NCBI GenBank assembly: GCA_020444265.1
Contig: JAHLLH010000003.1
Span: forward strand, 186,001-250,000
Length of the DNA stretch: 64,000 nucleotides
Reading direction: 5' to 3'
From: a bacterium
GTDB taxonomy: Bacteria > Electryoneota > Electryoneia > Electryoneales > Electryoneaceae
Both the position numbers and the translations under genes were made by a program. Below, piece after piece: positions 391 through 58,116 of the stretch; within the stretch, counting starts at the first letter, position 1, and each line of letters starts with the position of its first letter. Under the pieces are notes generated by a model, which had not been told where the DNA came from, searched no databases, and worked only from the letters and a program-made list of their open reading frames with translations.

Positions 391-884
391 AGTCGTCCTG
401 TAAAGTGAACATCGGAAAAAAGCTCAACCGGAAATTGATGGAAAGAAGGTCAGATTGCAAGCTGTACTGCCGCACTTCCCTCAGGAGTGGGGACGATGGC
501 GGCTATTCCATCCACGAAGTAAAAGCCTTCTATCATTCCACCACATGAACGATGGATTTCTGACTCGTTCAGGGTTCGTGCAGAGCCACTGATTGCTGCT
601 GCAGGGAGCACTAACATTTCCCTGACATTTTGCGATTTCGCATGTGGTAACCTTACCCCTGTCAGACAAACCCATGATAGAACAAGGTTCTGGTTGCCCG
701 GGTGCCGCTCTTGAGGAGGGGCGGAATCCGGGCAACACTGGTTTCTGGCCCTCCCTTAACGTCGATACTGTGTTTCAGGAACCCTACTTTACGGATGATG
801 CAAGGGGCGAGCCATGCGACAGCAGTGTGATCATCGTATACTTCATCAGGTTCATTTCGCAGCCATCTCAGTCGAGGAACATCC
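391..884. other. Divergent intergenic region between mscS-like gene and sensor kinase
   Basis: No convincing gene is present in these 494 bases. Short open frames on both strands lack recognisable domains or ribosome-binding sites. The region must hold the promoters of the two divergent genes and contains one conspicuous imperfect hairpin (693-736, listed separately). Confidence 0.5.
693..736. repeat. Inverted repeat (44-nt hairpin) upstream of the sensor kinase
   Basis: GTTGCCCGG (693-701) is matched by CCGGGCAAC (728-736), a perfect 9-bp stem. A second inner pairing CCGC/GCGG is possible within the 26-base interior. It lies about 150 bases before the kinase start and has no T-run, so it is not an ordinary terminator. 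It could be a leader structure or a protein site. Confidence 0.45.
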
Positions 885-2033
885 ATGGAGAAGGGTCTGA
901 ATCGCAGGCAAAATCGTGTGGCTGGGCTCGGTGTGCCGAAGCGTCACATGGTCATCTTTATCCTTCTCTCCATCTTTGCCGTCGCCCAGGTGACCTGGTG
1001 GGTCATCTTCCAGGTCAATATCAGCGACCGGGAAGAAATGGGCCAGATGAAACTCTGGCATCAGCAGATTCAGACTGCGAATCACTATGTTCATGACCAT
1101 TTCGAGAGCACCGCTCAGCTTGAAACATGGTTAAAAGCGAACTTCCCCGACCTCGAACTATCCGATAGCAGGCATGGGATTGTGGTTACCGACGAAGCAC
1201 GTCAACGCCTGCACGAACGCACCCATAACACGCGCAACATGTTCATCCACGAGGGCATTGTTTTCACGCTGCTGTTGATGGCGGGGATTTTGTACCTCTA
1301 CCGAACGTTGCGCAAAGAAGTTGCGATAGAACGTCACCAGGCGAATTTTCTCGCCGCCATCTCCCACGAGTTGAAAACCCCGATTACCGCATTGCGTCTC
1401 TACCTCGACACCCTGATTGACCGTGACCTGCCGAAAGAACGTGAAACTGAGATAAAGGGGGTCATGCGTGAGAATCTGGACCGCCTGCAAAATCTGATCG
1501 AGAAGCTGCTTCAGGCGCGTGCGATGGTCAACGTCAAGGGGCAGCATCAGCTCGAAATAACCGAACTGGGGGGTGAAACGGAACATGTTGTCACCACTTT
1601 TCGCGAGGAGCGTCACGACCTTGCGAAGTTTGATCTTACTCTCTCCTTGCCAGACTACCCCCTTTTCGTACGACTGGACAGCGAGCAGTGGCGTCAGGTG
1701 TTGCTCAACCTGCTCGACAATGCAGTGAAGTATTCGAAGGGGCACGCGAACATCGAAGTGACTCTCCGCCAGGTAAAAAAACGAGCCATCCTCACCGTTC
1801 GGGATCAGGGGATCGGTTTCGCATCCTCGGAGCGGAAGCATATCTTCGTACGGTTCTACCGTGCGGGCAATGAGGACACACGCTTGGCGGAAGGATCGGG
1901 AGTTGGTCTTTACCTTGTCAGTGAGATCGCCAAGAACCATCGCGGCAAGGCGTACGCTTTCAGCGAAGGACAGGGGAAGGGTGCCACATTCACCGTGGAA
2001 CTGCCGATAGCGAAGGAGAAGAACGCTGGCTGA
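885..2033 (+). CDS. Sensor histidine kinase, membrane-bound
   Basis: This is a 382-aa inner-membrane sensor kinase. Transmembrane helix 1 spans about residues 22-44. A periplasmic loop of about 75 residues follows, and helix 2 spans about 121-141. HisKA has the phospho-acceptor H161 in AAISHELKTPITALRL. The HATPase_c domain shows the N box (LLNLLDNAVKYSKG), G1 (DQGIGF) and G2 (GSGVGLYLV), so both catalytic halves are present. There is no HAMP or PAS domain, and the loop gives no clue to the ligand. A GAGGAA ribosome-binding site precedes the ATG. The stop codon overlaps the start of the response regulator, so the two form a translationally coupled two-component pair. A DASS anion transporter follows, which would fit a carboxylate-sensing system, but that link is inference. 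Confidence 0.93.
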   Translation: MEKGLNRRQNRVAGLGVPKRHMVIFILLSIFAVAQVTWWVIFQVNISDREEMGQMKLWHQQIQTANHYVHDHFESTAQLETWLKANFPDLELSDSRHGIVVTDEARQRLHERTHNTRNMFIHEGIVFTLLLMAGILYLYRTLRKEVAIERHQANFLAAISHELKTPITALRLYLDTLIDRDLPKERETEIKGVMRENLDRLQNLIEKLLQARAMVNVKGQHQLEITELGGETEHVVTTFREERHDLAKFDLTLSLPDYPLFVRLDSEQWRQVLLNLLDNAVKYSKGHANIEVTLRQVKKRAILTVRDQGIGFASSERKHIFVRFYRAGNEDTRLAEGSGVGLYLVSEIAKNHRGKAYAFSEGQGKGATFTVELPIAKEKNAG

Positions 2034-2733
2034 ACGGATTCTGATTGTCGAAGATGAGGAACACATCGCCCGCGGCTTGCAGCTCAACCTCGAGGAAGAG
2101 GGCTACCAGACCGAGATTGTGGCGGATGGTCTGGAGGCGATTGAGGCCATTACCACCAACACTCCCGACCTGGTGCTGCTCGATGTCATGCTGCCCGGAG
2201 CGAGCGGGTTTGATGTCTGTGATCGTGTTCGGGCCGAGGGCAACCGTGTCCCGATTCTCTTTTTGACAGCGCGGGGACGTGAAGATGACCGTGTTCGTGG
2301 TCTCGAGCTGGGTGGGGATGACTATGTCTCGAAGCCCTTCTCGATTCGTGAGCTGTTGCAGCGCATTCGTGCCATGCTACGTCGCCAGATGTGGTATGAC
2401 AGCCAGCCTCAGCAGGGCAACAATGTTGAATTTGGTGGCAACAGCGTCAATTTTGCCGCTTACAAGGCCACCACACGGACCGGCAAACAGATCACATTGA
2501 CTCAGAAAGAGTGCATGGTCCTCAAATTACTCGTGGAACACCAGGGGGAAGTGGTAGCTCGCGATACCATCCTCGACCAGGTCTGGGGCTATGACCGTTA
2601 CCCATCCAGCCGGACCATCGACAACCTGATTCTACAGCTAAGACGGTATTTCGAGGAAGATCCCCGTCAACCGAAATACATCCAGACGCAATACGGTGCC
2701 GGGTATCGTTTCATCGCGGACGGAGGCGAATAA
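2026..2733 (+). CDS. OmpR/PhoB-family response regulator, probable CTG start
   Basis: The receiver domain has the acidic pair D10/E11 (ILIVEDEE), the phospho-acceptor D53 (LVLLDVMLPG) and the conserved lysine of VSKPFS. It is followed by a winged-helix DNA-binding domain ending in YIQTQYGAGYRF, the usual OmpR C-terminus. The beta-1 strand ILIVEDE lies upstream of any ATG, GTG or TTG, because the first such codon in frame is TTG at 2077, inside helix 1. The frame is closed by a TAG at 2008-2010. In between, a GGAG at 2015-2018 sits 7 bases before CTG at 2026, giving M-A-E-R-I-L-I-V-E-D-E. I therefore place the start at this CTG (ACG at 2023 is the alternative), overlapping the kinase by 8 bases. 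The product would be 235 aa, normal for the family. Confidence 0.9.
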   Translation: MAERILIVEDEEHIARGLQLNLEEEGYQTEIVADGLEAIEAITTNTPDLVLLDVMLPGASGFDVCDRVRAEGNRVPILFLTARGREDDRVRGLELGGDDYVSKPFSIRELLQRIRAMLRRQMWYDSQPQQGNNVEFGGNSVNFAAYKATTRTGKQITLTQKECMVLKLLVEHQGEVVARDTILDQVWGYDRYPSSRTIDNLILQLRRYFEEDPRQPKYIQTQYGAGYRFIADGGE

Positions 2734-2745
2734 AGGGGGGAGAGG

Positions 2746-4293
2746 ATGGCGATCTCAGGCAGGCAGGATACGTTCCGCAAAGTGGCCCTGTTGCTGGGTC
2801 CTGTGCTTGGGTTGCTCACTTGGTGGGGGATGCCTGAGGTTGATGGCTCTGCGCTTGTTGCACGTACCGCCGGGGTCGCGGTCTGGATGGCGGTTTGGTG
2901 GTTAACCGAAGCGGTCCCCCTTGCAGTCACTTCTCTGCTACCCCTTGTCTTTTTCCCCCTGCTCGGCATCCTGCCATCTGGTAAAATTGCCAGCTACTAT
3001 ACCAACGATATTGTCTTCCTCTTCATCGGTGGGTTCATCGTCGCTCTGGCGATGGAACGATGGATGCTGCACAAACGGATCGCGCTGCATGTCATTTTGA
3101 CTGTTGGCGGCGGACCGATCCGAACTCTCTTCGGCTTCATGCTTGCCACGGCTCTTCTTTCAATGTGGATTTCAAACACCGCGACGGCGATGATGATGGT
3201 CCCGATTGCCGGGGCGGTTCTCGCGCGCTGGGACAAGCTGTACGATGCAAAACAGGCACGTTTCTTTGCCATCGCGCTCCTGCTCGGGATCGCCTATTCG
3301 GCATCGGTCGGAGGTATGGGCACACTCGTGGGCACACCGCCGAACCTTGTCTTCGCCCAGCTTTTCCACCAGCAGTTCGAGGGTGTCGCCCCGGTCAGCT
3401 TTGCGGAATGGTTCATTTTTGCCCTCCCCTTGAGTCTGATCTTTCTGGTGATTGTCTGGGGCGTGTTGACCCTGATGTATATGCGTGGTGCTCGAGTCGA
3501 GGCGGGAGCAAAGGATCTCTTCCGGAGCGAGCTGAAGGATCTGGGCAGAATGAGCCACGAGGAGAAGACGGTGCTGGTGGTCTTTGGATTGCTGGCGTTG
3601 CTCTGGGTCTTCCGCACTCCCCTCGATACCGGCTGGTTCACCATCCCCGGCTGGAACATGTTGCTGCCGGAACCCTCTTTTGCGGGAGATGGAACCGCTG
3701 CAATCGCATTGGGGATTCTACTGTTCGTCCTGCCTGCAAAAGGGGAGCGAGGGGCACGGATCATGGACTGGCAGACGGCCCGTCAGCTTCCCTGGCGGAT
3801 CGTGTTGCTCTTCGGCGGTGGGTTCGCTTTGGCGGGTGCAATCAAGGCGAGTGGGCTGGCAAGCTGGATCGGGGTGCAGATGCAGGGGTTGTCGGTTTTG
3901 CCACCTGTGCTGACCACAGCTTCGATCAGTTTCCTGATGACCTTCCTGACGGAACTGACTTCCAATACTGCGACCACCCAGATGGCGATGCCGATTCTCG
4001 GCGCGCTGGCGGTGGCGATTGGACGCAGTCCTTACTTCCTGATGATCCCCGCCACTCTAAGCGCTTCCTGTGCTTTTATGATGCCGGTTGCCACTCCGCC
4101 CAACGCCATTGTCTTCGGCACGGGTCGCTTACGGATCGCCGACATGGCGAAGACCGGGATTGCCCTCAACCTGATCGGGGTGGTATTGATCACGATCTAC
4201 ATGCACCTGATTGGCCCGTTGCACTTCTCTACCCAACCTCTCGAACAGCCGGAGTCCAGCCAGAGTGAGCTGGTTCAACCTGACCATCGGTAA
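2746..4293 (+). CDS. SLC13/DASS-family anion (dicarboxylate or sulfate-type) symporter
   Basis: This 515-aa polytopic inner-membrane protein has roughly a dozen hydrophobic segments. Two inverted-repeat signature motifs are visible: SNTATAMMMVP (residues 143-153) and SNTATTQMAMP (406-416). Each has a matching proline hairpin, GTPPNLVFA (196-204) and VATPPNAIVFGTG near residue 450. These define the divalent anion:Na+ symporter family, in which the SNT motifs bind Na+ and the carboxylate or sulfate. I cannot tell the substrate from sequence. A GGGGGGAGAGG ribosome-binding site precedes the ATG, which lies only 12 bases after the response regulator stop, so all three genes probably form one operon. 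Confidence 0.9.
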   Translation: MAISGRQDTFRKVALLLGPVLGLLTWWGMPEVDGSALVARTAGVAVWMAVWWLTEAVPLAVTSLLPLVFFPLLGILPSGKIASYYTNDIVFLFIGGFIVALAMERWMLHKRIALHVILTVGGGPIRTLFGFMLATALLSMWISNTATAMMMVPIAGAVLARWDKLYDAKQARFFAIALLLGIAYSASVGGMGTLVGTPPNLVFAQLFHQQFEGVAPVSFAEWFIFALPLSLIFLVIVWGVLTLMYMRGARVEAGAKDLFRSELKDLGRMSHEEKTVLVVFGLLALLWVFRTPLDTGWFTIPGWNMLLPEPSFAGDGTAAIALGILLFVLPAKGERGARIMDWQTARQLPWRIVLLFGGGFALAGAIKASGLASWIGVQMQGLSVLPPVLTTASISFLMTFLTELTSNTATTQMAMPILGALAVAIGRSPYFLMIPATLSASCAFMMPVATPPNAIVFGTGRLRIADMAKTGIALNLIGVVLITIYMHLIGPLHFSTQPLEQPESSQSELVQPDHR

Positions 4294-4307
4294 GCGAAGG
4301 AACGAAA

Positions 4308-5024
4308 TCAGGCGATACGGGTTGCGACGGCGAGGTGACTGACGGCCAGGGTTGGAAGCATCGTGCGGTCCTGGGCGAAAATGGTCTGCTGGAGGAGATC
4401 CTGCAACGCCTTCGGTTTGGCACGGTCCATCGGTGCGGTGATGTAAACAAGACGGACCTGATCAAATCCGGCGTCGCCGAGCTGACGCAGGAGACGACGT
4501 CGTGTGTAGATCCTTGCCTTTGCCCACCTTGAATGCAGCACATCCGGTAGCCAGGAGAAGAAGGGGACACGGTTCCACGGCAGGTAGGGCAGGTAAGCAC
4601 CGTGGGTCTCGAAAATCCACCACTTGTTTGGCACAGAAATCACCGCCTGGCCACCCACCTTCAGGATCCGATGGAATTCACGCATGGTCTGGACCGGGTC
4701 CTGAACATGCTCAAGCACCTCAAAACAGGTGATCGCATCGAAGGATTGGTCGGGAAAAGGCATCTGCTCGCCTGCGGAACAGACCCATTCTCCATCTTCG
4801 GGGGCGAGCTTCAGCAGCGAGGTTTGAATATCCGCGCCGACCACACGGTCAAAGTGGGGCTGGAACATCCCGGTTAACGCACCATTGCCACAGCCGACAT
4901 CAAGAAGGCTTCCGCCCTTGTGCAGGATGGCCGAGTGCTTTGCCGTCAAGCGGAACCGCCGTCCGAGAATCTTCTCTCCCTCGTCGGCTGGTTTTCCAAG
5001 TGCGATGGGTGCCTGGTGGCTCAC
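4308..5024 (-). CDS. Class I SAM-dependent methyltransferase
   Basis: This 238-aa cytoplasmic protein has a Rossmann-type methyltransferase core. Motif I is LLDVGCGNGALTGMF, the acidic end of beta 2 is VVGADIQTSLL, and the motif IV region is FDAITCFEVLEHVQDP, followed by VGGQAVISVPN. The EVLEHV pattern is typical of Methyltransf_11/23 enzymes of the UbiE/small-molecule type; the substrate is unknown. It starts at a GTG (5022-5024) with GGGAAACG upstream. It converges with the DASS transporter gene, leaving only 14 bases between the stops, and no clear terminator lies between them. Confidence 0.85.
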   Translation of the reverse strand: MSHQAPIALGKPADEGEKILGRRFRLTAKHSAILHKGGSLLDVGCGNGALTGMFQPHFDRVVGADIQTSLLKLAPEDGEWVCSAGEQMPFPDQSFDAITCFEVLEHVQDPVQTMREFHRILKVGGQAVISVPNKWWIFETHGAYLPYLPWNRVPFFSWLPDVLHSRWAKARIYTRRRLLRQLGDAGFDQVRLVYITAPMDRAKPKALQDLLQQTIFAQDRTMLPTLAVSHLAVATRIA

Positions 5025-5096
5025 GATACGTTTCCCGTGGTTCGTCTCAGAATCAGGCTAAGGTACGATTCGCTGGATTGCGGGACAAGATGAAAA

Positions 5097-5122
5097 CGTC
5101 CCCGCCGGGATTGACGGGGACG
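5097..5122 (-). terminator. Rho-independent terminator of the beta-helix/dockerin protein
   Basis: CGTCCCCG (5097-5104) pairs with CGGGGACG (5115-5122) around a 10-base loop. Read on the minus strand, the stem is followed by TTTT. It lies 26 bases beyond the stop of the 5148-7445 gene. Confidence 0.75.
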
Positions 5123-5147
5123 GTTAAAAATAGCTTTGCCTGAGTCG

Positions 5148-7445
5148 CTATTGCAGATAGACAACCTTGTGGAAATGAGTTTGCCTGCCGATACGAACCT
5201 GGAGATAGTAAATCCCAGAGGAAAGCCCGGTAGCGTTCCATTGCAGGTGGTGGACGCCTCGGTTCATGGAACGTTTTGCCAGGGTTGTGATTTGACGGCC
5301 GAGAAGATCAACAATCCGCACTTCAACGGAAGCCGCCTTCTCGATCGAAATATTGATATTCAGAGTGGGGTTGAAGGGATTCGGCCACGCTGTTAAAATC
5401 TGGTGAGAAAGGGGAAGAGGAGCTTCTGTAACATCGGTATTCTCCAGCCAGAATTCTTCCCCGATGGGTTGCCATGAACCATCATTTATCCGGATATCCA
5501 CCACTTCCAGCGCTCCACCCTCGACCTGAGGCTCTGTAAAACCGAATCTCATCGAAAGAATCTCATGCTCGTCCACCGGAATTGATTCGAAAGCAAGGTT
5601 CAGTCTGGCGCCATCTGGAAGCGGGGTGATCACAGGGTTACACCCGGCCATCTGGATCGACATTGCTTCGAGCGCTACATGCTCTGGGTCGAAGTGCAAT
5701 CGTACCTCAGCGGAGCCGACGGATTCGTTGTCATCAAGCGCGAACGTAAGCCACCAGAAGCCATCCTGACCGGAGTTTAAAGCGAACGAAGGAGTGGCTG
5801 TTCCAGTTGGTCCAGGTTGCCCTGATTCCACCGGGAAAGAATCAATCGCGCCTGAGACGCGCTGAAGGATCAGCGAGGCATCGAAAGCGGTCAGTTCGTC
5901 ATTGCCGGACACTTCACCAAGGCGATGTTGCAGATCGGTCAAATCGAGGGTGCCTTCCAGCCAACGCAGGATCATCGAGGCGTCGTAGGCCTGCACCTCG
6001 TGGTTCAGACTGACATCTCCCGCCGGGAACTGGCTGATTGTCAACGTACCACCCGGCAAGACAACCTCCGGCTCGCCTTCGTTGGCTATAATAGATGTAC
6101 AAAAGATGGGATATTCACCCTCTTGCGCATCTGGGGATATCTCAAATTCGATTGCCAGCAGCGGCCCTGTTCCGCGCAAGGCCGAAGCCCCAGCGCAGGC
6201 AAAAGAGATGCCGGATTCCAATGTGTTCCACTCTGCCATCCATCCGGCATCACTTCCCGGTCCGGGAGTAGCCATGGCGACATTTGTTACCTCCAGGATC
6301 GGTGGTATGGGCAGATTCAGGTCGCCCTCAAGCGAGAAGATGGGTTGATTGGTCAAGGTGTTGATGGAGAGGAAAAGAATTCCAGTCCCCCCCGGTTCGG
6401 CGACTGGGTCATTTAACCCGACAATGAGCGCTGTCGGTTGCTCAGCAGTTCCAAACCAGATAGCCCCGAGATCGCTGATCGAACCATCCGGGTCGGTGGG
6501 ACCGTCCGGATCACCTGCATCGATGCAGGGCGAGTTGCTGGTCAGACGAAAATCATCGTTCACGGGATCCAGCAAAAGTGGGTCATTGAAGACCAACCCC
6601 GGTCCGGACATGGTCGAATCCGAAACACAGGAATACTCGACAAATCCCTGCCAGTATGTTGTCAGATGAGTGGGGGCTCCAGTCGCGTCCCAGAGGATTG
6701 AGTTGGAGATGATGCTACTGGAGAAGTACCAGCGGGCGACAGAATTGTCCTGCCATGCGACATTGTTGTAGCAGGTGAGATGGTCAGCTATCACATCGCC
6801 ATTGTAGAAGTAGATGGCGCCGCCATTCTCTGCCTGGTTTTCCCAGAGGAGGTTATGTTGGAAGACGCCGGCGGCACCGTCAGCAAAATCAATCGCCCCA
6901 CCGCATCGCTCTGCGATGTTTCCGTAAAACTGGCAACTGTCGATGGCTACGTCGGCCTCATAGACCAACATACCCCCACCATCAAGTGTGGCGTGATTGT
7001 ATCGGACGGTTGAGTGTCGCATGGAGAAATTGGCTTCACGGATGCTGATACCGCCACCGAAAAGCTGTGGCTCATACGTGCCGCCATATTCCACCGTTGC
7101 CCAGACCATGGTGTTGAGCTCGTCATTTTCCCAGAAACGTAATCCGCCCCAAGTTTCACCATCCGTCGAACTGGTGAAGAGGATTGGCTTCTGTTCGGTC
7201 CCGATAATCTGGCAGCCGCCATAAAAGGTTAGTGACATCGCCTGATCAGCGAAAACAACAACACCTTCTTCGATCACAAGGGTTGAATCAGCGGGCAGGA
7301 CGGCCGATTGTTCGAGGATATAGGGGTTGCCAGCAGTGGTCCACGTGCCAGATGGGATCGATTCGGGGATGATGGTCTCGGCGTCCATGCTGAAGGGCAG
7401 CAGTAGAGCCAGGATAGCTAAGAAGCACAATAACAGTGTTTTCAT
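5148..7445 (-). CDS. T9SS-sorted exported protein: beta-helix, cohesin-like and dockerin-like modules
   Basis: This is a 765-aa secreted protein. A signal peptide (MKTLLLCFLAILALLLPFSMDA) is followed by a right-handed beta-helix region (about residues 50-330, with N..C/ENGGAIYF-type repeats). A cohesin-like beta module comes next (about 340-470). Two tandem dockerin-like repeats follow, GDVSLNHEVQAYDASMILRW and GEVSGNDELTAFDASLILQR (about 478-530). A second cohesin-like beta module precedes the C-terminal T9SS sorting domain (AWPNPFNPTLNINIS ... SSGIYYLQV). I prefer the ATG at 7443-7445, which has GGAG upstream and sits directly at the signal peptide, over an ATG 27 bases earlier. It likely ends up on the cell surface. 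Binding or scaffold functions are possible, but no catalytic motif is visible. Confidence 0.83.
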   Translation of the reverse strand: MKTLLLCFLAILALLLPFSMDAETIIPESIPSGTWTTAGNPYILEQSAVLPADSTLVIEEGVVVFADQAMSLTFYGGCQIIGTEQKPILFTSSTDGETWGGLRFWENDELNTMVWATVEYGGTYEPQLFGGGISIREANFSMRHSTVRYNHATLDGGGMLVYEADVAIDSCQFYGNIAERCGGAIDFADGAAGVFQHNLLWENQAENGGAIYFYNGDVIADHLTCYNNVAWQDNSVARWYFSSSIISNSILWDATGAPTHLTTYWQGFVEYSCVSDSTMSGPGLVFNDPLLLDPVNDDFRLTSNSPCIDAGDPDGPTDPDGSISDLGAIWFGTAEQPTALIVGLNDPVAEPGGTGILFLSINTLTNQPIFSLEGDLNLPIPPILEVTNVAMATPGPGSDAGWMAEWNTLESGISFACAGASALRGTGPLLAIEFEISPDAQEGEYPIFCTSIIANEGEPEVVLPGGTLTISQFPAGDVSLNHEVQAYDASMILRWLEGTLDLTDLQHRLGEVSGNDELTAFDASLILQRVSGAIDSFPVESGQPGPTGTATPSFALNSGQDGFWWLTFALDDNESVGSAEVRLHFDPEHVALEAMSIQMAGCNPVITPLPDGARLNLAFESIPVDEHEILSMRFGFTEPQVEGGALEVVDIRINDGSWQPIGEEFWLENTDVTEAPLPLSHQILTAWPNPFNPTLNINISIEKAASVEVRIVDLLGRQITTLAKRSMNRGVHHLQWNATGLSSGIYYLQVRIGRQTHFHKVVYLQ

Positions 7446-7610
7446 AGTCAGACTCCAGATAAAACCAACCAATGATAAATAGCAGTATTAATAGTGTCTG
7501 TATTAAATCTACAATCTTTCTCCAACTATTCAAAACGAGAAGAGGGAGCAGAAGCATGCCGCCCTGGACATTTTTCCAAGGCAACTTGAGATTGCTTGAG
7601 AGGAAAAGCC

Positions 7611-10058
7611 CTACTCTGCCAGACGAACCTGAATCGCTCGCTGCCCTACTGCATGAGGTAGGACAACCTCAAGAAGGTCGAGATCTTCGTCGTAGGTCCA
7701 CTCACGTTCCCCGGCAGGGTATCCACCAGTAGATGGCAAGGGCAATAAGGCTCCTGTATGTCTTCCTTCGCTGACTTCTTGTGGGGTGGACTCGATGCCA
7801 TGGAATCGGAGACGGAGAAAGGATTGGCTTGCTTCGAACGATCCCTGCTCGATACTGCCTTGCTGCAGCAGGATGGTCTCACCAAATCGGCTAAGCGAAA
7901 ACTCACAAGTTCGGGAATCCGGTTTGACACTCGAACCATCATCTTCGTAGAGCGAGAAGTGCCCTGCTGGTGCGTCCTTGATCGGGTAGAGATCGAGGGT
8001 GAGGGTGTCTGGCACAAATTCGCCGACGTATTGCATCACTGGCCAGCTTGGGATGATCGCGTTCTCACGTGCGAACACCGGAATCCAGTCCAAGCCAGCT
8101 ACCACCAACGTCCGTCCAGGCCCCTCGTACCGTTTGCCTGTCTTCAGCTCGGTCCAGCTCCCCTTCGGGAAGTAAACGGGACGAACTCCTGCATCCGATT
8201 GGAAGATGGGCGCGACCATTACATGGGATCCGACAAGGAACTGGTCGTTTACGGCTCCAGCTTTCAAATCGGGGGTGAAGGCGGGATCGAAGACGAGCGG
8301 GCGCATCATCGGGGCGCCGGATTGTACATGTTCATGGAAAAGACTGTACCAGAGTGGCAGCAGTGAATACCGCTGTTCGATGACCTGCTTGACGTACTTT
8401 TCTACGATGGGACCATAGGCCCAGGGTTCGCCACGGTGGCTGTGGACATCCGCATGGTTCCGAAAGAAGGGGGTCCATGCACCGAACTGGACCCAGCGCA
8501 GGAAGAGCTCCGGGTCGCCGCCATCGGTAAACCCACCGAGATCGGAGCCGACGAAGGCATTGCCGGACAATCCCATGCTCATCAACATGGCGGGAGTCAC
8601 GCTGTAGTGATCCCATGTGCCGGGAACATCCCCGTTCCATGTTGCGGCATAACGTTGGACACCGGGGGCACCGGCACGTGTCAAGACAAAAGGTCGCTTA
8701 TCCGGATGGGCCTGCCTTAAACCTTGCTTCGTTGCTCTTGCCATCAGCAGAGCGTAGACGTTGTGTGTTTCACGGTGATCCGTCTCGATCCCTTCTCCAT
8801 CCCACCGGCTGTCAAGCGGGAAGCCACCCTCGGGCTCCCAGGTGGCGGGCTCATTCATGTCGATCCAGATTCCATCAAGGCCGGAGGAAACCCACTCCTC
8901 GATTCGACCGGCCCACCAGTCTCGTGTTGCAGGAGAGGTGAAGTCGGGGAAGACGGATGGTCCAGGCCACACTTTGCCCACAAACAACTCGCCATCCGGC
9001 ATCGTAACAAAGTAGTCGCCTTCGACCCCTTCGTCGTAGACATCATACCCTGTCTCATCGCCGGCATAGACACCGGGGTCGACAATCGTCACCGACCTGA
9101 AGCCCATCGATTCGAGCGAATCATTCAATGCGTGCGGATTTGAGAAGTTCATTTTATTCCAGGTGAAGACACGAAAACCTTCCATGTAGTCGATGTCCAT
9201 CCAAATGGCGTCTGCTGGGATGTTGCGTGCCCGAAGCTCCTTAGCGATTCCAAGTACCTCATCGGCGGACATGTAGCTCCAACGGCACTGGTGGTACCCC
9301 AAAGCCCAAAGCGGAGGCATCGAAGCACGACCGGTCACCATGGTCAGCTGCTCAACAACATCCGGCATCAGCGGGCCGTAAAAGAGGTAGTAGTCAAGTG
9401 CTCCGCCATCAATGCTCATCGCGAGTCGGCCGGGGGTGGAAGCTCCAATGTCAAAGTGAGATCGATAGCTGTTGTTCAGAAAGAAACCGCTCACCGTACC
9501 CTCACGCACGGACAGGTAAATCGGGAACGATTGGTAAAGGGGGTCTTGTTCGACAGCAAATGCCCCTTCTGCCAATACATCCGTGTTCCACATCGTAAAG
9601 CTGCGTCCGTTTTTCAAGATCGGTCCGGAGGATTCACCGAAACCGTATATCCGCTCGTCTGGCAGGAGACGTTTTTCGACAACGATGTTATCATCGATGG
9701 TGACGCCCAGATCCTCGCTTAGGACATGTCGGTTTCGGTCAAACATCGAGATGCGTCCATCCGATTTTTGAACGAAAAGGACCAGGGAGTCCGTCTCCAG
9801 TTCGAACAAGTCGTCATCTTCTGTCACTGAAAACTGAGCCATTGGTTCGAGTGGCTCGCTGACCAGCCAGGCACGAGTCGGGTGGGGCGATTTGTTCGAT
9901 TCGTAACGAACATGAATCACGTTGTGACGGACCGCGGTCAGGACCAGGGTCTTCCCCTCAAGGGGAAGCCTGAACTCAGAGTTGGATGTCATCGAGCAGC
10001 CCGATAGAAAGAGAAACAGGAGAGCAAGCAGGATAACGGGGATGGCAAACGAGCGCAC
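7611..10058 (-). CDS. Glycoside hydrolase family 31 (alpha-glucosidase-type) lipoprotein
   Basis: This 815-aa protein hydrolyses alpha-linked glucosides or xylosides by a retaining mechanism. The nucleophile is D400 in GIWIDMNEP, and the probable acid/base is D477 in TWNGDVPGTW. The family landmarks PPLWALGYHQCRWSY (before 265), FVGSDLGGF and FFRNHADVHS are all present, and the length fits GH31. The N-terminus is a lipoprotein signal with lipobox LSGC (C21), so the enzyme is membrane-anchored in the periplasm or at the surface. It starts at GTG (10056-10058) with GGAGG 5 bases upstream. It is transcribed in the same direction as the beta-helix protein 166 bases downstream, so the two could be co-expressed for polysaccharide use. 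The exact substrate is unknown. Confidence 0.92.
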   Translation of the reverse strand: MRSFAIPVILLALLFLFLSGCSMTSNSEFRLPLEGKTLVLTAVRHNVIHVRYESNKSPHPTRAWLVSEPLEPMAQFSVTEDDDLFELETDSLVLFVQKSDGRISMFDRNRHVLSEDLGVTIDDNIVVEKRLLPDERIYGFGESSGPILKNGRSFTMWNTDVLAEGAFAVEQDPLYQSFPIYLSVREGTVSGFFLNNSYRSHFDIGASTPGRLAMSIDGGALDYYLFYGPLMPDVVEQLTMVTGRASMPPLWALGYHQCRWSYMSADEVLGIAKELRARNIPADAIWMDIDYMEGFRVFTWNKMNFSNPHALNDSLESMGFRSVTIVDPGVYAGDETGYDVYDEGVEGDYFVTMPDGELFVGKVWPGPSVFPDFTSPATRDWWAGRIEEWVSSGLDGIWIDMNEPATWEPEGGFPLDSRWDGEGIETDHRETHNVYALLMARATKQGLRQAHPDKRPFVLTRAGAPGVQRYAATWNGDVPGTWDHYSVTPAMLMSMGLSGNAFVGSDLGGFTDGGDPELFLRWVQFGAWTPFFRNHADVHSHRGEPWAYGPIVEKYVKQVIEQRYSLLPLWYSLFHEHVQSGAPMMRPLVFDPAFTPDLKAGAVNDQFLVGSHVMVAPIFQSDAGVRPVYFPKGSWTELKTGKRYEGPGRTLVVAGLDWIPVFARENAIIPSWPVMQYVGEFVPDTLTLDLYPIKDAPAGHFSLYEDDGSSVKPDSRTCEFSLSRFGETILLQQGSIEQGSFEASQSFLRLRFHGIESTPQEVSEGRHTGALLPLPSTGGYPAGEREWTYDEDLDLLEVVLPHAVGQRAIQVRLAE

Positions 10059-10351
10059 TCACGCCTCCGAAAAGAGGTTGAAACAGAATGAAACACTCCA
10101 GAAGGTAGCAAAACCGGAGGATGGTGAGAGAGAATCCTCACCAATTGGAAGGGGTAGGACCCTCCTCGAATAATGCTGCGAACGTAGCAAGTCCTATCCC
10201 TCGCTATCCCTGTGTTCAAACCCGAAATTCTACTTTTGTTATTAGTTTCACATAATAATGTAGTGTGTACTGGCTCCGGTAAGGTGAGTCTAACTTAAAG
10301 GCGAACAACAAGGTACTCTAAGGTGCAGGGCTGTGACGACTGAGCAATGGC

Positions 10352-10367
10352 TGGTACTAAGGAGGCA
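10352..10367 (+). promoter_or_regulatory. Possible sigma54 -24/-12 element of the redox operon
   Basis: TGGTACTAAGGAGGCA has GG (10353-54) and GC (10365-66) exactly 10 bases apart and matches 8 of 12 consensus positions. The usual TT before GC is absent. It is weaker than the site at 14462, but both share GGTAC in place of GGCAC. Confidence 0.3.
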
Positions 10368-10412
10368 AGTCCTTGACATACTTTTCACAAAGTCTTACTT
10401 TTCCTGTGGAAT

Positions 10413-10450
10413 AGGGAGGGGACACTCAGCGCACCCTGTGCGGCCTCCCT
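10413..10450 (+). promoter_or_regulatory. Double hairpin in the leader of the redox operon
   Basis: AGGGAGG (10413-10419) can pair with CCTCCCT (10444-10450). Nested inside is a perfect 5-bp hairpin CGCAC-CCT-GTGCG (10430-10442). It ends 36 bases before the ATG of the ferredoxin gene. There is no T-run, so an operator or an RNA leader structure is more likely than a terminator. Confidence 0.4.
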
Positions 10451-10486
10451 AATGGTCTATATGTCACAAGGACGTGGGGGGGCTTG

Positions 10487-11269
10487 ATGGACGGCCCAGC
10501 TTCAATTCTTCTCGATTTCACTCTCTGCATCGGATGTGGAGCGTGCGAGGATGCCTGCCAGGAGGAGCACAATCTACCTGCTGATCCTCCTGAGGACAGA
10601 TTGGATTACCGTAACTACACGGTAGTTCTAAAGAAGGACGACCAGTATTATCGCAAGATGTGCATGCATTGCGAGGAACCTACCTGTGCATCCGTCTGCC
10701 CGGTTGCTGCCCTCATAAAAACAGAGGAAGGACCGGTTATCTACCATCCCGACAAGTGCATCGGTTGTCGCTACTGCATGATGGCCTGCCCGTTCGGGAT
10801 TCCAGCCTACGAATGGCACAAGCCCATTCCTGTCATTCGCAAATGCATCATGTGCAATGAGCGTGTCTCTGCGGGCAAGCAGACAGCCTGCGCCTGGGTC
10901 TGCCCGGTCGGGGCTTGCCGTTTTGGTCCACGCGAAAAAATGCTTGCGATTGCGAAACGTCGTATCGCTCAATTCCCGGATCGCTACGTGGATTACATCT
11001 ACGGCGAGAAGGAAGTCGGTGGAACATCTGTCCTGATGTTGTCAGGAACGCCGTTCGAGGATCTCGGCTTCCGGATGGATCTGGGTGAGCAGGCGCTACC
11101 AGAACTCACCTGGACCGTCATGTCGAAAATTCCAAACATTGTTATCACAGGCGGCATTCTGCTTGGTGGGATCTCCTGGATCATTCAGCGTCGTATGGAT
11201 ATCGAAAAAGAGAACTTGTCCGCTCTCGACGAACATATCAAGAACCAGGAGAAGGGAGGTGATGCATGA
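10487..11269 (+). CDS. Four-cluster [4Fe-4S] ferredoxin subunit with C-terminal membrane anchor (HybA/DmsB-like)
   Basis: This 260-aa electron-transfer subunit has four cysteine groups: CIGCGACEDAC, CMHCEEPTCASVCP, CIGCRYCMMACP, and CIMC followed by CAWVC. These are the ligands of four [4Fe-4S] clusters, as in the HybA/DmsB/NrfC family. A single hydrophobic helix near the C-terminus (about residues 212-229, IVITGGILLGGISWII) should anchor it, as in HybA. Unlike HybA, it has no Tat signal: the first cluster begins at about residue 13. I chose ATG 10487 over the preceding TTG. The stop overlaps the next ATG (ATGA), so it is coupled to the NrfD-like subunit, to which it should pass or from which it should receive quinol electrons. 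Confidence 0.9.
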   Translation: MDGPASILLDFTLCIGCGACEDACQEEHNLPADPPEDRLDYRNYTVVLKKDDQYYRKMCMHCEEPTCASVCPVAALIKTEEGPVIYHPDKCIGCRYCMMACPFGIPAYEWHKPIPVIRKCIMCNERVSAGKQTACAWVCPVGACRFGPREKMLAIAKRRIAQFPDRYVDYIYGEKEVGGTSVLMLSGTPFEDLGFRMDLGEQALPELTWTVMSKIPNIVITGGILLGGISWIIQRRMDIEKENLSALDEHIKNQEKGGDA

Positions 11270-12417
11270 CATCCCTGATCGCCTATTGGCAGCGCCTCTC
11301 CGGCCATCGCCGCTTCGCCTGGATTACTGCCGGGTTTATCATTCTCCTGGGTCTCGTACTTACCTACCGTCGATTCTTCATTGGCCTGGGGGATGTGACA
11401 AATCTGACGGACGAGTTTCCGTGGGGCTTCTGGATCGCGTTTGATGTTGTTGGGGGCGTCGCACTGGCAGCAGGCGGATTCACCCTCTGCTTCCTCGTCT
11501 ACATATTTGGCTACCACCGTTATCATTCCATCGTACGGCCAACCGTGCTGACTGCTTTCCTCGGCTACATCCTGGTTGCGGTCGGTCTGCTTTACGACCT
11601 CGGGAAGTACTACAACATCTGGCATCCGATCGTAATGTGGAACCCGCATTCGGTGATGTTCGAAGTTGCCTGGTGCGTCATTCTTTACCTGACGGTCCTT
11701 TTCCTCGAATTCCTTCCCGTTGTCCTTGAGAAATTTAACCTGATTGCACCGTTGCGTTTCATGCAGAAACTGACCATCCCCATCGTGCTGATGGGTGTGA
11801 TCCTCTCAACCCTGCATCAATCGTCCCTCGGTTCAGTCTTCCTGATCGTTCCTAACAAGCTACATCCGCTTTGGTACACACCGATCCTGCCGTTGCTCTT
11901 TTTCCTGTCAGCAGTCATGGTCGGTCCGGCAATTGTGATCCTGGAATCGAGCCTCAGCGCCCGTCTCTTCCACCGTGGCCTCGAGACACCGATCCTTGCC
12001 GACCTGGCACGTTTCCTCCAGGTTGCGTTGCTTGTCTATGTTGCCGTCAAGATTCAGGATCTCTTCGTACGTGGAGTCGTAGGCGAACTCTTCACCGGGG
12101 AGTATGAAGCTTATCACTTCATGGGCGAGATGCTCTGCCTGTTTTTCGCGTTCGTAATTCTCGCCTTCCGCAAGTTGAGAACCAACCAACGCTGGCTGTT
12201 CACCGCTGCAACCCTGGTTGGCCTGGGTGTTGTTTACAACCGGATGAACGTCGCCTGGATCGGCATGCTGCGGGGGACGGGCGCGTCCTACTATCCGGCA
12301 TGGACAGAACTGGCGACCTCAGCATTCCTGATCACGGTTGGAATGGTCGCCTTCTATTTTATCGCGAAGTTCTTCCCGATCTTCCCTGAACTGGAGGAGG
12401 AACACAGCCATGCGTAA
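11266..12417 (+). CDS. NrfD/HybB/PsrC-family quinone-interacting membrane subunit
   Basis: This 383-aa integral membrane protein has about ten hydrophobic helices, among them FAWITAGFIILLGLVLTYRR and VAWCVILYLTVLFLEFLPVVL. Its length and features, such as FPWGFWIAFDVVGGVALAAGGF near the N-terminus, match the HybB branch of the NrfD family. Such proteins carry no haem and exchange electrons between menaquinol and the partner ferredoxin. It overlaps the ferredoxin gene by ATGA and is followed 67 bases later by a tetraheme cytochrome. Together these resemble the membrane module of Hmc/Hyb/Dsr-type complexes without a catalytic subunit. Confidence 0.92.
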   Translation: MTSLIAYWQRLSGHRRFAWITAGFIILLGLVLTYRRFFIGLGDVTNLTDEFPWGFWIAFDVVGGVALAAGGFTLCFLVYIFGYHRYHSIVRPTVLTAFLGYILVAVGLLYDLGKYYNIWHPIVMWNPHSVMFEVAWCVILYLTVLFLEFLPVVLEKFNLIAPLRFMQKLTIPIVLMGVILSTLHQSSLGSVFLIVPNKLHPLWYTPILPLLFFLSAVMVGPAIVILESSLSARLFHRGLETPILADLARFLQVALLVYVAVKIQDLFVRGVVGELFTGEYEAYHFMGEMLCLFFAFVILAFRKLRTNQRWLFTAATLVGLGVVYNRMNVAWIGMLRGTGASYYPAWTELATSAFLITVGMVAFYFIAKFFPIFPELEEEHSHA

Positions 12418-12484
12418 CTCGAATCGCAACAATCATGGGTCCAGCCCGGCCCGTAAACAAGCTGTTGATACAAGGAGAACCACC

Positions 12485-12838
12485 ATGCGTCGGGAACGCA
12501 TATTCTGGATCCTTCTGCTGGTCGCGGTCTTCGCCCTCGGCGCGCAGACGGAACGGTTCAGCGAGATCTACGACTGGGACAACCGTCGTTCGGAAATCCC
12601 GGAGAAGCACGTCTTCCAGACCCAATATCTTGGCGGAACGCAAATCGTTTTTGACCACCAGATGCACGTGGACGATTTTGGGATGGAGTGCATTGAGTGC
12701 CACCATGTAGAAGGTTGCGCTCACTGCCACAAGGAAGATGTCCGCCAGGTTGACGTTGCCGAAGCAAAGGTGGCGATCCACAGAAACTGCTTCGCCTGCC
12801 ATGAGGACATGAGCTGCGTGGAATGCCACAGGCAGTAA
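12485..12838 (+). CDS. Exported tetraheme c-type cytochrome
   Basis: This 117-aa protein has a signal peptide (MRRERIFWILLLVAVFALGAQ) and four CXXCH haem-attachment motifs: CIECH, CAHCH, CFACH and CVECH. Additional histidines (FDHQMHVD, HHVEG, IHRN) could serve as distal ligands, as in class III cytochrome c3-like or cytochrome c7-like proteins. It should act in the periplasm and may stay anchored by its uncleaved N-terminus. I start it at 12485, with AGGAG upstream and the signal peptide immediately after, rather than at the earlier in-frame ATG (12410) that overlaps the NrfD stop. It is the third gene of the redox operon and probably the periplasmic electron donor or acceptor. Confidence 0.9.
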   Translation: MRRERIFWILLLVAVFALGAQTERFSEIYDWDNRRSEIPEKHVFQTQYLGGTQIVFDHQMHVDDFGMECIECHHVEGCAHCHKEDVRQVDVAEAKVAIHRNCFACHEDMSCVECHRQ

Positions 12839-12917: not shown

Positions 12918-14222
12918 CTACACGATCTGGAGCTTCCGCAATTTTCGCCAAAGGGTTGAACGGTGAATGCCCAGTTCCTCGGCGACTGCGTTGCGGTTGC
13001 CTTTGTGACGTGTGAGGGCATCTACCAGGATGCGGCGTTCGTCATGGTCACCCGCATGACTGGCCAACTGGGGTTGCTCACCACGCAGTCGTGGGGGAAG
13101 ATGCTCGGGCAGCAGCACACGGTCATGGCACATCACAAAAGCGTGCTCGATCGCGTTCCGCAACTCACGGACATTGCCGGGGAAAGGGAAACCGCGGAGC
13201 AGGGCGATGGTTTCCGGCGCCGCGTAGTCGATTGGTTTGCGTGTCTCTTTGCGTAATTGCTCAATGAAGGTGTTGACAAGGTGTGGGATGTCTTCTGGAT
13301 GATCCCGCAAAGGTGGCAAGTCGAGGGTGACCACATTAATCCGAAAGTAGAGGTCGTGACGAAAGTGTCCCTTTTCGACGGCAGTTTCGAGATCCTCGTT
13401 GGTATTCGCGATAATTCTGGCATTGGTTCGCATCGGCTCAGTTGCGCCCAACGGTTGGAACTCTCCATCCTGCAGGACACGCAGTAATTTCACCTGCAAC
13501 GGCATATCAAGGGAGGAGATTTCATCGAGCAAAAGCGTGCCGTCGTTGGCAAGTGCGAACATGCCCGGTTTGGTCTGACGAGCATCGGTGAAAGCTCCCT
13601 TTTTGTACCCGAACAGCTCTGATTCGAGCAAGGTCCCCGGCAGGGCACCACAATTGATGCGGACATATGGTCCGTGCCTGCGGGGAGAGAGGCTGTGCAC
13701 CGCCCGTGCAAACAATTCTTTCCCCGACCCGCTCGGCCCCTGAATCAAGACGCTGCAATCCGAGGAGGAGATGTCCGGTAGTAACTTGAGAAGTCGTTGC
13801 ATTTCCGGATTGATGGTGACAATGTCTGTGATGGAAGTTTGCCTGATCAACCTGGATCGCAGTTGCTCGATTTCTGTGAGATCCCGAATCAACACGACCG
13901 CTCCTATCGCCGCACCCAGATCATCCTTCATCAAGGTGACCGTCAGTTGGACGGGGATCCGTCGTCCATCCTTCCCTGTAATGTTGGCACGAGCAGTCGA
14001 TTCTTCCTCTTCCTTGTCAATCAGCTCACTCACCACGCAGGCTCGTTCACAGATGCGGGTCTGGAAGAGCTCATAACAGATGTTGCCGATGGCTTCCTGA
14101 GCGGTGTAGCCCGTGATCCGCTCGGCGGCGTGGTTGAAGGCGGTGATGCGGCAGGATCGGTCAACCGAAAAAACTCCATCGGCGATGGTGTCAAACACCT
14201 GGCGATACAAATGCTGTTCCAT
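12918..14222 (-). CDS. PAS-domain sigma54-dependent transcriptional activator (bEBP)
   Basis: This is a 434-aa activator. The PAS domain (about residues 1-115) contains C49, C58 and C62 (C-x8-C-x3-C). The AAA+ sigma54-interaction domain (about 140-370) has Walker A GPSGSGKE (162-169), Walker B GTLLLDE (228-234) and the loop GAFTDA (209-214), a variant of GAFTGA. The C-terminal Fis-type HTH is GNRNAVAEELGIHRSTLWRK. A frame extension to 14342 exists, but a palindromic enhancer-like site lies inside it and the family PAS start fits MEQHLYRQVFDTIADG, so I use the ATG at 14220-14222. No receiver domain is present, so the PAS domain probably senses the signal directly. It is convergent with the redox operon and divergent from a gene with a sigma54 promoter. 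Confidence 0.92.
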   Translation of the reverse strand: MEQHLYRQVFDTIADGVFSVDRSCRITAFNHAAERITGYTAQEAIGNICYELFQTRICERACVVSELIDKEEEESTARANITGKDGRRIPVQLTVTLMKDDLGAAIGAVVLIRDLTEIEQLRSRLIRQTSITDIVTINPEMQRLLKLLPDISSSDCSVLIQGPSGSGKELFARAVHSLSPRRHGPYVRINCGALPGTLLESELFGYKKGAFTDARQTKPGMFALANDGTLLLDEISSLDMPLQVKLLRVLQDGEFQPLGATEPMRTNARIIANTNEDLETAVEKGHFRHDLYFRINVVTLDLPPLRDHPEDIPHLVNTFIEQLRKETRKPIDYAAPETIALLRGFPFPGNVRELRNAIEHAFVMCHDRVLLPEHLPPRLRGEQPQLASHAGDHDERRILVDALTRHKGNRNAVAEELGIHRSTLWRKLRKLQIV

Positions 14223-14303
14223 GGAGGTCCCGGGAAAGCTGGGAGGGTACTTCAAGATAGGCAATCTTCGCGGAAAAAGAAACGAAGATCGTGGTTGCGC
14301 TCG

Positions 14304-14338
14304 TTGCGTGATGTCGCACGTTTCATGCGACATATGCA
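14304..14338. promoter_or_regulatory. Palindromic enhancer-like site (probable bEBP binding site)
   Basis: ATGTCGCA (14311-14318) and TGCGACAT (14326-14333) form a perfect 8-bp inverted repeat around 7 bases. The flanks GTTGC and GCAAC extend the symmetry with a one-base slip. It lies about 140 bases upstream of the -24/-12 element, the normal distance for a sigma54 enhancer, and beside the gene of a Fis-HTH activator. Confidence 0.72.
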
Positions 14339-14461
14339 ACACGACCTAAGACAATGAAGCTCCATCAATCGTGGTGGCTCTCGCTTTACATGACTGCGAA
14401 GAGTGGTCGCCCTGCGGAGTTGTGGAAAGAGGGGAAGAGGTGGAGCTAGTTAAGCTGGAAA

Positions 14462-14477
14462 CGGTACAACGCTTGCA
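14462..14477 (+). promoter_or_regulatory. sigma54 (-24/-12) promoter
   Basis: CGGTACAACGCTTGCA has GG (14463-64) and GC (14475-76) separated by exactly 10 bases, and TTGCA matches the -12 consensus fully (9 of 12 positions overall). Transcription would start near 14488, about 44 bases before the small ORF at 14532. Confidence 0.75.
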
Positions 14478-14531
14478 GTTGGGGGGGACGTGGCCCTCCC
14501 ATGCTTTAAAACGTAATATTTAGGAGAAACC

Positions 14532-14687
14532 ATGCTGGCGATGGATCCTCAGAGCAGCTTCCTGATAAATCTGGAAATCCTGATTGCCGGAACGGCAGTC
14601 CTGCTCCTGGCTGTGTTGGGTTGTGTTGTAAGGGGATGTTTCCACAAAGATCATTCCGCGAACAAGCAGCAGACAAAGCATGTTTAA
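14532..14687 (+). CDS. 51-aa single-span membrane peptide
   Basis: A short open frame starts at ATG 14532, with TAGGAG 6 bases upstream. The product has a short N-terminus, one strongly hydrophobic helix (about residues 10-33, ending VLLLAVLGCVV) and a basic/histidine tail (RGCFHKDHSANKQQTKHV) with two cysteines, C31 and C36. It resembles no family I can name. Its size, one helix and polar tail recall small accessory subunits of respiratory complexes. It sits directly behind a good sigma54 promoter and in front of a strong terminator hairpin, so it appears to be a monocistronic target of the neighbouring activator. That makes translation likely despite its size. Confidence 0.72.
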   Translation: MLAMDPQSSFLINLEILIAGTAVLLLAVLGCVVRGCFHKDHSANKQQTKHV

Positions 14688-14718
14688 AAGAGGTGGGTAT
14701 CTGGGATACCCACCTCTT
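14688..14718. terminator. Bidirectional terminator hairpin
   Basis: AAGAGGTGGGTATC (14688-14701) and GATACCCACCTCTT (14705-14718) form a perfect 14-bp stem with loop TGG. It lies between the convergent small membrane gene and the diheme cytochrome gene. The minus strand has CTTTT after the stem. Confidence 0.82.
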
Positions 14719-14745: not shown

Positions 14746-15657
14746 TCACCGATTTCCTTCCGGCGTAGCGGGAAGGGTCTGTAAATATTTCCAGAGGGCT
14801 GTCAGCTCGACATCTGTCATCTGCCCGAAGTTCGCCCAGGGCATAATGGGATCGACCACACTCTCGTCCGGTCGCAGTCCGAAACGCATGGCGACGATGA
14901 AGTCCTGCTGGTCCCAAGTGCCCAGGCCGGTCTCCGTATCTGGGGTCAGGTTCGTTGCTGGAGGCCAATCTGGAGGACCGATCGGAATGGCCCCGCCGGA
15001 ATAACCTGCTCCATGGCAACCGGTGCAACTGGTCGCGAGATAAGCCCCGTATTCAACTGTCGGACCTGCTTCAGGCTGACCGGGGTGGTCACCCTTGTGA
15101 TCAATAATCTCTGCACTGATCAAGGGGGCCTTGTTAAAAGCGAGCAGACCTCGCGCTACAGGGCCAAGCTGTGGTCGATCATAATGGCTGTCAACTGCCG
15201 GGATCGATTCGAGGTAGGCGATCAGGTCCGCCAGATCCTTGTCCCCGATAAAGTAGTACTCCTCCGAAGGCATCATTACCAACCCTCGACCCTCCGGACT
15301 GACACCATGACGGATGGCTCGGACCCAATCTTCAGTGGAGTAATCGGCCGGCAATCCACCCTCACCTCTTGTCAGGTTGGGACCCGCTAAATAGCCCATA
15401 GCCGGATTATCCATGACCACATCACCAGCCAGGTTGGCTCCATGGCAATCAATGCAGCCACGTGTGATCGCGAGATGTTGCCCCCGAGAAATGGAAAGTG
15501 AATCCGATGTAACTTCGATTTGGACAACGGGAATCGTGTAGGCGCGATTCAACCTGTTGTTGCTCGCGGTAAAGATGTAGAGCACGAACAGCAAGATGAT
15601 GCCTACCAGTGTTCCCACCCCAATCAAAACCCCCCGAACAGCAGGATGTACGCGCAT
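14746..15657 (-). CDS. Membrane-anchored diheme cytochrome c
   Basis: This 303-aa protein has an N-terminal helix (VLIGVGTLVGIILLFVLYIFTA, about residues 9-30) that should anchor it to the inner membrane with the rest in the periplasm. Two class I cytochrome c domains follow. The first has CIDCHGANLAG (about residues 68-78), with a methionine-containing segment later in the domain. The second has CTGCHGAGYSG near residue 215, with distal-ligand candidates in PIMPWANF. The arrangement is like diheme cytochromes that accompany dehydrogenases or oxidases. It starts at ATG 15655-15657. No partner enzyme lies next to it. The redox operon and the small sigma54-driven peptide are its neighbours, which suggests a local electron-transport cluster. 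Confidence 0.88.
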   Translation of the reverse strand: MRVHPAVRGVLIGVGTLVGIILLFVLYIFTASNNRLNRAYTIPVVQIEVTSDSLSISRGQHLAITRGCIDCHGANLAGDVVMDNPAMGYLAGPNLTRGEGGLPADYSTEDWVRAIRHGVSPEGRGLVMMPSEEYYFIGDKDLADLIAYLESIPAVDSHYDRPQLGPVARGLLAFNKAPLISAEIIDHKGDHPGQPEAGPTVEYGAYLATSCTGCHGAGYSGGAIPIGPPDWPPATNLTPDTETGLGTWDQQDFIVAMRFGLRPDESVVDPIMPWANFGQMTDVELTALWKYLQTLPATPEGNR

Positions 15658-31356: not shown

Positions 31357-31474
31357 CGTTCTTTCTCCCGGTAGTACGTTGCTGTTGTCCGTTCTAATTG
31401 CAAGGGGAATGCCAAAATGGAGAAGGGTTCCGTAAGAGTAGTAATAGAAAGAGGATAGAGAGTCTCTCGAGTGT

Positions 31475-45841: not shown

Positions 45842-46237
45842 GGATGATTCAATCGCACTGGGATACTACAGGTTTTCCTGCAAGAGTAGTAGAACAAGAC
45901 TCGCCAATTGGGAATAAGCTCCGGACAATACCTTTCCCTTGTAGCGATTTAATGATTCGGGATAGTGTTGGAATCCCGCGTACTCCTTAGGTATAACAGT
46001 TAGTTAGACAGGTTGCCTCGCAACAGATATCAGCAATGGTTTGCTTCACGAATACCTGTTACGCAATTTCGGGTTTGGGTTGATATTGATGGTATATGTT
46101 TTGCACAATGTAGATCTGAGCCGATTGTTGCCGTGAACGATACGCTTTCCCCGCATTGAGATGTGCAATGATCCGATACGATCTGATCAGTGTACTTTCT
46201 CGCGCGAAAAGTTCATGGTTTTGCGGGGGAACGATCT
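45842..46237. other. Intergenic region without visible features
   Basis: In these 396 fairly AT-rich bases I find no supported gene and no strong repeat. It presumably holds the promoter of the carboxypeptidase gene. Confidence 0.5.
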
Positions 46238-57902: not shown

Positions 57903-58116
57903 GGTATTCCCTGTTCAAGTTGTACCAATCGAGTAAGCAACTGGCATACCAATTTGAAAAGAGACGGCGTTAGGTTATCCCAACTAAGGTGTGATCAAGA
58001 AGTTGGAAAACGGGCTGGTCGTGTAGTTCGGGCTGTGCAACAAAAAAAGTTCATCGGAGTGAAAAAAACGTTCAATAACCCCTGAAACGAGACCAGAACG
58101 ATTTTCCATGAACAGA

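Follow-up and report, generated by a model that had tools for sequence, protein, structure and literature searches.

A probable σ54 switch linking an OrpR-like cysteine-PAS regulator to a lone orphan membrane peptide

Within the window considered here (the whole 64,000-nucleotide stretch of bacterial DNA that was analysed), an activator gene of the cysteine-PAS type lies divergent to a 51-codon open reading frame, and the arrangement is probably that of a dedicated σ54 switch, in which a regulator resembling OrpR (DVU2106-type) would drive an orphan membrane peptide. Judging from gene order, the novelty of the locus is its target: the members of the activator's clade adjoin multi-gene redox or Fe-S loci, whereas the activator of the window faces a lone peptide, the sole gene between the σ54 promoter and a downstream hairpin. 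The predicted circuit is made convincing by comparative genomics; the promoter or the repeat, taken alone, is weak evidence. The first-pass annotation had proposed such a circuit (cysteine-PAS activator, enhancer and promoter facing a small reading frame), and this proposal is borne out by half-sites shared with related loci and by the presence of a gene for σ54 (rpoN; PF04552 match, E 3e-51) in the 4.33-Mb host genome, which is the single representative of its genus in the comparison set. From left to right, a forward-strand operon converges on the reverse-strand activator gene, beyond which the repeat, promoter, Shine-Dalgarno sequence and reading frame follow in the divergent direction, and the hairpin lies between the 51-codon reading frame (+) and a convergent diheme cytochrome gene (-). 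The features are as follows.

10484..12838, + strand: operon for an HmcB/HybA-like 4Fe-4S protein, an HmcC/HybB-like NrfD protein and a tetraheme cytochrome c (profile matches)
12918..14222, - strand: σ54 enhancer-binding activator, 434 aa (Pfam PAS, Sigma54_activat and HTH_8; alignment, tree)
14311..14341, no strand: predicted operator/enhancer ATGTCGCA-N7-TGCGACAT-a-TGCAACA, with three half-sites of the activator clade (motif common to the divergent intergenic regions of the clade)
14462..14477, + strand: σ54 -24/-12 promoter CGGTACAACGCTTGCA, predicted start 14488 (weighted score 13.0)
14523..14527, + strand: Shine-Dalgarno AGGAG, with ATG 5 nt further on (sequence)
14532..14687, + strand: reading frame of the 51-aa peptide, one predicted transmembrane helix (coding-like codon pattern; hydropathy)
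14688..14718, no strand: perfect 14-bp hairpin between convergent genes (fold)
14746..15657, - strand: diheme cytochrome c, convergent with the peptide (Pfam Cytochrom_C)

The activator, the inverted repeat, the GG-N10-GC promoter and the Shine-Dalgarno sequence with its membrane-peptide reading frame had all been reported at these positions by the first-pass annotation, and each was found there. The activator consists of a PAS domain, an AAA+ σ54-interaction domain with Walker motifs (Sigma54_activat, E 2e-63) and a Fis-type helix-turn-helix, and a sequence-specific site lies upstream, as befits an enhancer-binding protein; its PAS domain carries conserved cysteines of the OrpR type in the motif C-x8-C-x3-C, its GAFTGA-type loop reads GAFTDA, and its recognition sequence is HRSTLWRK. 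The GTG start of the longest reading frame is disfavoured, and relatives start at the position that matches ATG 14222. In the alignment, C-x8-C-x3-C recurs in nearly all relatives of the same family and phylum, the GAFTDA loop is kept by them with one exception, and the Fis-type helix-turn-helix is common to them. In the tree, the window activator is the sister of a seven-member clade with a support of 100/100 and sits on a long branch (0.87); on this sequence comparison, its sister clade, from which it has diverged, consists of cysteine-PAS, GAFTDA, Fis-type regulators that resemble OrpR (DVU2106). Most members of the clade adjoin genes for MinD/Mrp-type ATPases, Nitro_FeMo-Co proteins and HmcB/NrfD/CCG-type redox modules.

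The likeness to OrpR is drawn from published descriptions rather than from the DVU2106 sequence. DVU2106, a single-component regulator with a GAFTDA loop, controls two operons, and GAFTDA is listed as a loop variant that is still functional (PMC4641369); moreover, the palindromes to which DVU2106 binds lie at -88 and -131 of σ54 promoters, and it is subject to negative autoregulation, its own σ70 promoter being repressed because it overlaps the palindrome (PMC3897727). The window likewise has a GAFTDA enhancer-binding protein, palindromes near the activator gene and a divergent σ54 promoter; by position, the operator centre lies at about -166, and the sites of Desulfovibrio vulgaris lie at -88/-131. 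Autoregulation of the activator is unproven, because no σ70-type promoter for its gene was seen in the promoter scan. The clade loci are similar to the D. vulgaris orp locus, whose Mrp-type protein has been described (PMC6345978), and the host's own paralogue of the activator, on contig C11, similarly lies among genes for Nitro_FeMo-Co proteins, MinD/Mrp-type Fe-S ATPases and Hmc-like proteins. Such orp-like genes are present at the paralogue and none is adjacent to the window activator; whereas OrpR of D. vulgaris targets operons for Fe-S proteins, the gene divergent from the window activator belongs to one orphan peptide and not to a Nitro_FeMo-Co/Mrp ATPase operon of the orp type.

The inverted repeat reads ATGTCGCA-cgtttca-TGCGACAT at 14311-14333 and is followed at 14335 by the third half-site, TGCAACA. 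Of random 314-nt stretches, 5% contain an 8-bp repeat whose arms are separated by a short gap, so that the repeat alone is weak evidence. However, the 308-bp spacer holds three half-sites, where the background in other intergenic DNA is 0.24 per 500 bp, and the divergent spacers of the clade carry 2–5 copies of TGT(C/T)GCA / TGC(G/A)ACA each against the same background. Two clade loci that were examined after the motif had been defined also carry half-sites in the expected spacer, with four of them clustered in one (G012) and an overlapping pair in the other (G019). In the 4.33-Mb host genome, TGTCGCA-N4..10-TGCGACA occurs once, at the window locus, and TGTCGCA-N0-30-TGCAACA exactly twice, at the window locus and at the orp-like paralogue on contig C11. 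No half-site cluster lies beside a second clade activator copy in G007, whose recognition helix differs slightly, and the TGTCGCA/TGCGACA element is found at 0 of 37 more distant cysteine-PAS loci, which come from other phyla and mostly have other recognition helices. Because the half-sites recur at clade loci and are scarce elsewhere, the palindrome is very probably the site at which the window activator binds. A third TGTCGCA/TGCGACA match in the host genome (C16:548198) lies inside a gene and was taken as chance.

The σ54 promoter CGGTACAACGCTTGCA at 14462-14477 keeps the GG-N10-GC spacing with an imperfect -24 element (cGGtACa), and the predicted start at 14488 is counted with the C of GC as -12. 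Promoter words with at most three mismatches to the consensus number 54 in the whole window against 59 expected, without enrichment; this chance-level frequency, together with the long branch of the activator (0.87), which suggests relaxed or changed selection, would suit a fortuitous promoter, the operator then serving only the autoregulation of the activator or being a relic of a lost orp-type operon. Such an account is nevertheless very unlikely, in view of a weighted score (at least 13) that is reached in 0.5% of random 314-nt stretches, a normal operator distance, and a Shine-Dalgarno sequence and transmembrane reading frame that then follow. The combination of promoter, Shine-Dalgarno sequence and small transmembrane reading frame appeared 0 times in 3.84 Mb of Markov-simulated sequence and was not met again in 1.78 Mb of related loci, and no ortholog of the window locus was found in related genomes.

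Elsewhere in the window, good σ54 words lie less than 100 bp upstream of the genes for a 766-aa protein of secreted type (46090-46105, +) and a 700-aa protein with a His-rich N-terminus (57936-57951, -), and no half-site cluster of the activator clade was found near either. Two further intergenic words, at 799-814 (-) and 31399-31414 (-), score 16.0 and 15.4 and have no same-strand gene of at least 100 aa within 400 bp downstream; they may belong to small genes or RNAs, or arise by chance.

The peptide reading frame starts at ATG 14532, 5 nt after the Shine-Dalgarno AGGAG, and stops at 14685-14687. Its product has one predicted transmembrane helix (mean hydropathy 2.76) and a C-x4-C motif near the C-terminal end; from the distribution of charge, its topology is probably N-out/C-in, with the positive, two-cysteine tail in the cytoplasm. 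A lipoprotein reading (VLG|C) was rejected, as the N-terminus has no positive charge and contains D and E residues. The GC content by codon position is 59/33/59%, against 60/41/62% for host genes, and the codon score falls within the range of real genes; since 7% of spurious reading frames also reach it, this score is supportive and not conclusive. By sequence, no relatives of the peptide were found in the genus, the phylum (39 genomes) or a set of genome contigs, and weak matches were chance-like; the best match in its own genome (E 0.05, contig C2) is no membrane peptide but a charged frame that lies antisense to the beginning of a longer gene. The peptide has no match in NCBIfam or the PDB, and its top Pfam match (DUF4834, E 0.12) is sub-threshold, so that it belongs to no known family of small membrane proteins among these collections. 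The conservation among relatives by which the first-pass annotation had proposed to judge the peptide failed to appear in any of these searches; as there is no homologue, selection on the peptide cannot be demonstrated, and as it occurs in no other genome so far, it would be a newly evolved target and not a conserved part of respiration.

The hairpin downstream has, by folding, a perfect 14-bp stem and a 3-nt loop, as had been claimed. Its description as a terminator was not upheld: a U-run is nearly absent on the + strand (TTC), with TTTT on the - strand, and the terminator scan did not call it. It is possibly a shared terminator or barrier between the convergent genes. The weak + strand U-run, the convergent genes and the lack of a peptide homologue would also fit a σ54 transcript that acts as a regulatory RNA, with the reading frame incidental, possibly as an antisense RNA through hairpin read-through into the diheme cytochrome gene; the transcript folds better than shuffled sequences (z -2.9), mostly owing to the hairpin. 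This alternative appears quite unlikely in light of the good Shine-Dalgarno sequence and spacing, the coding-like codons and the clean transmembrane segment, and no Rfam-type RNA family matches the transcript above the threshold.

In the neighbouring operon, the small cytochrome has four CxxCH motifs, and the top NCBIfam matches of the Fe-S and NrfD proteins are HmcB/HmcC and HybA/HybB. These two proteins resemble the HmcB/HmcC and HybA/HybB pairs, and the third gene of the operon is that of a small tetraheme cytochrome; however, they are not members of the HmcB and HmcC equivalogs, because their scores (258 and 316) lie under the curated cut-offs (420 and 550, respectively). HmcD, CydX and CcoQ are small subunits of respiratory complexes, and the peptide is akin to them as a short single-span protein near redox genes but unlike them in having no NCBIfam match and a sub-threshold Pfam match. 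Adjacency, and the HmcB/NrfD-type modules that adjoin the activator's paralogues, could be cited in favour of a peptide that serves the Fe-S/NrfD/tetraheme complex or the diheme cytochrome as an accessory subunit, a role that would be compatible with the σ54 switch. It is an unlikely one: the Fe-S/NrfD/tetraheme unit is conserved in relatives without the activator or the peptide (seven loci, several near contig ends), and the diheme cytochrome is likewise present in relatives without the peptide, so that an obligatory role of the peptide as a respiratory subunit is unsupported, as is the subunit or assembly role that had been suggested for it. The operon itself was rejected as a target of the activator, as neither a half-site cluster or operator nor a σ54 promoter was found upstream of it, and no co-regulation with the peptide by this switch is therefore expected.

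Under the preferred reading, that of a σ54 switch dedicated to the peptide, the activator would occupy the TGTCGCA/TGCGACA/TGCAACA half-sites at 14311-14341 and from there, about 165 bp upstream, contact σ54-RNA polymerase at 14462-14477 by DNA looping; the GAFTDA loop and ATP hydrolysis would bring about promoter opening. Translation of a transcript of ~235 nt from near 14488 would then yield the inner-membrane peptide of 51 residues and a single span. The redox state is the probable signal, sensed at a metal or Fe-S site formed by the three PAS cysteines, and the peptide would therefore be produced under reducing, anoxic conditions. OrpR is reported to hold a redox-sensitive [4Fe-4S] cluster in its PAS domain, and the conservation of the cysteines makes an OrpR-like Fe-S cluster plausible in the window activator. 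Since the operator also lies upstream of the activator gene, it may set the level of the activator as well, as is reported for DVU2106. Once in the membrane, the peptide probably modulates a redox protein there, and which one is a guess. A tentative and somewhat unlikely extension of this scheme starts from a duplication at an orp-type locus: the new copy of the redox-sensing enhancer-binding protein would have retained its operator and acquired another target, a single-span peptide of recent origin that is produced only when conditions are reducing and that tunes a membrane redox complex. Through the shared operators, the paralogue may influence the peptide too, which would thereby link the orp-like locus with the membrane.

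Cysteine-PAS σ54 activators of uncultured bacteria form a widespread and little-studied class, for one clade of which TGT(C/T)GCA / TGC(G/A)ACA is a predicted operator, and the window offers a clear case of such a regulator with an orphan small membrane protein as its only visible local target. Annotation often overlooks proteins this small, and an activator dedicated to one of them argues independently that it is real.

Related loci carry comparable arrangements. On contig C11 of the host (G000:C11:640001-680000; L030, L031), three cysteine-PAS σ54 activators are clustered in an orp-like and Hmc-like island with genes for a Nitro_FeMo-Co protein, two MinD-like Fe-S ATPases, CCG, NarI-like and HmcB/NrfD-hexaheme proteins, and the L030 activator (10101-11516) has a TGTTGCA-type repeat and a σ54 word alongside. 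At L104 (G007:C330), two related cysteine-PAS activators flank genes resembling those of NADH-dehydrogenase or hydrogenase subunits (886-8150); the locus also has a 37-bp TGTCGCA...TGCGACA element, as well as strong σ54 promoter words that diverge. In a relative (L028, 16405-16447), a long perfect palindrome, TTGTTGCAACATAATGTTGCAACAA, lies beside TGTCGCA between two divergent, strong σ54 words.
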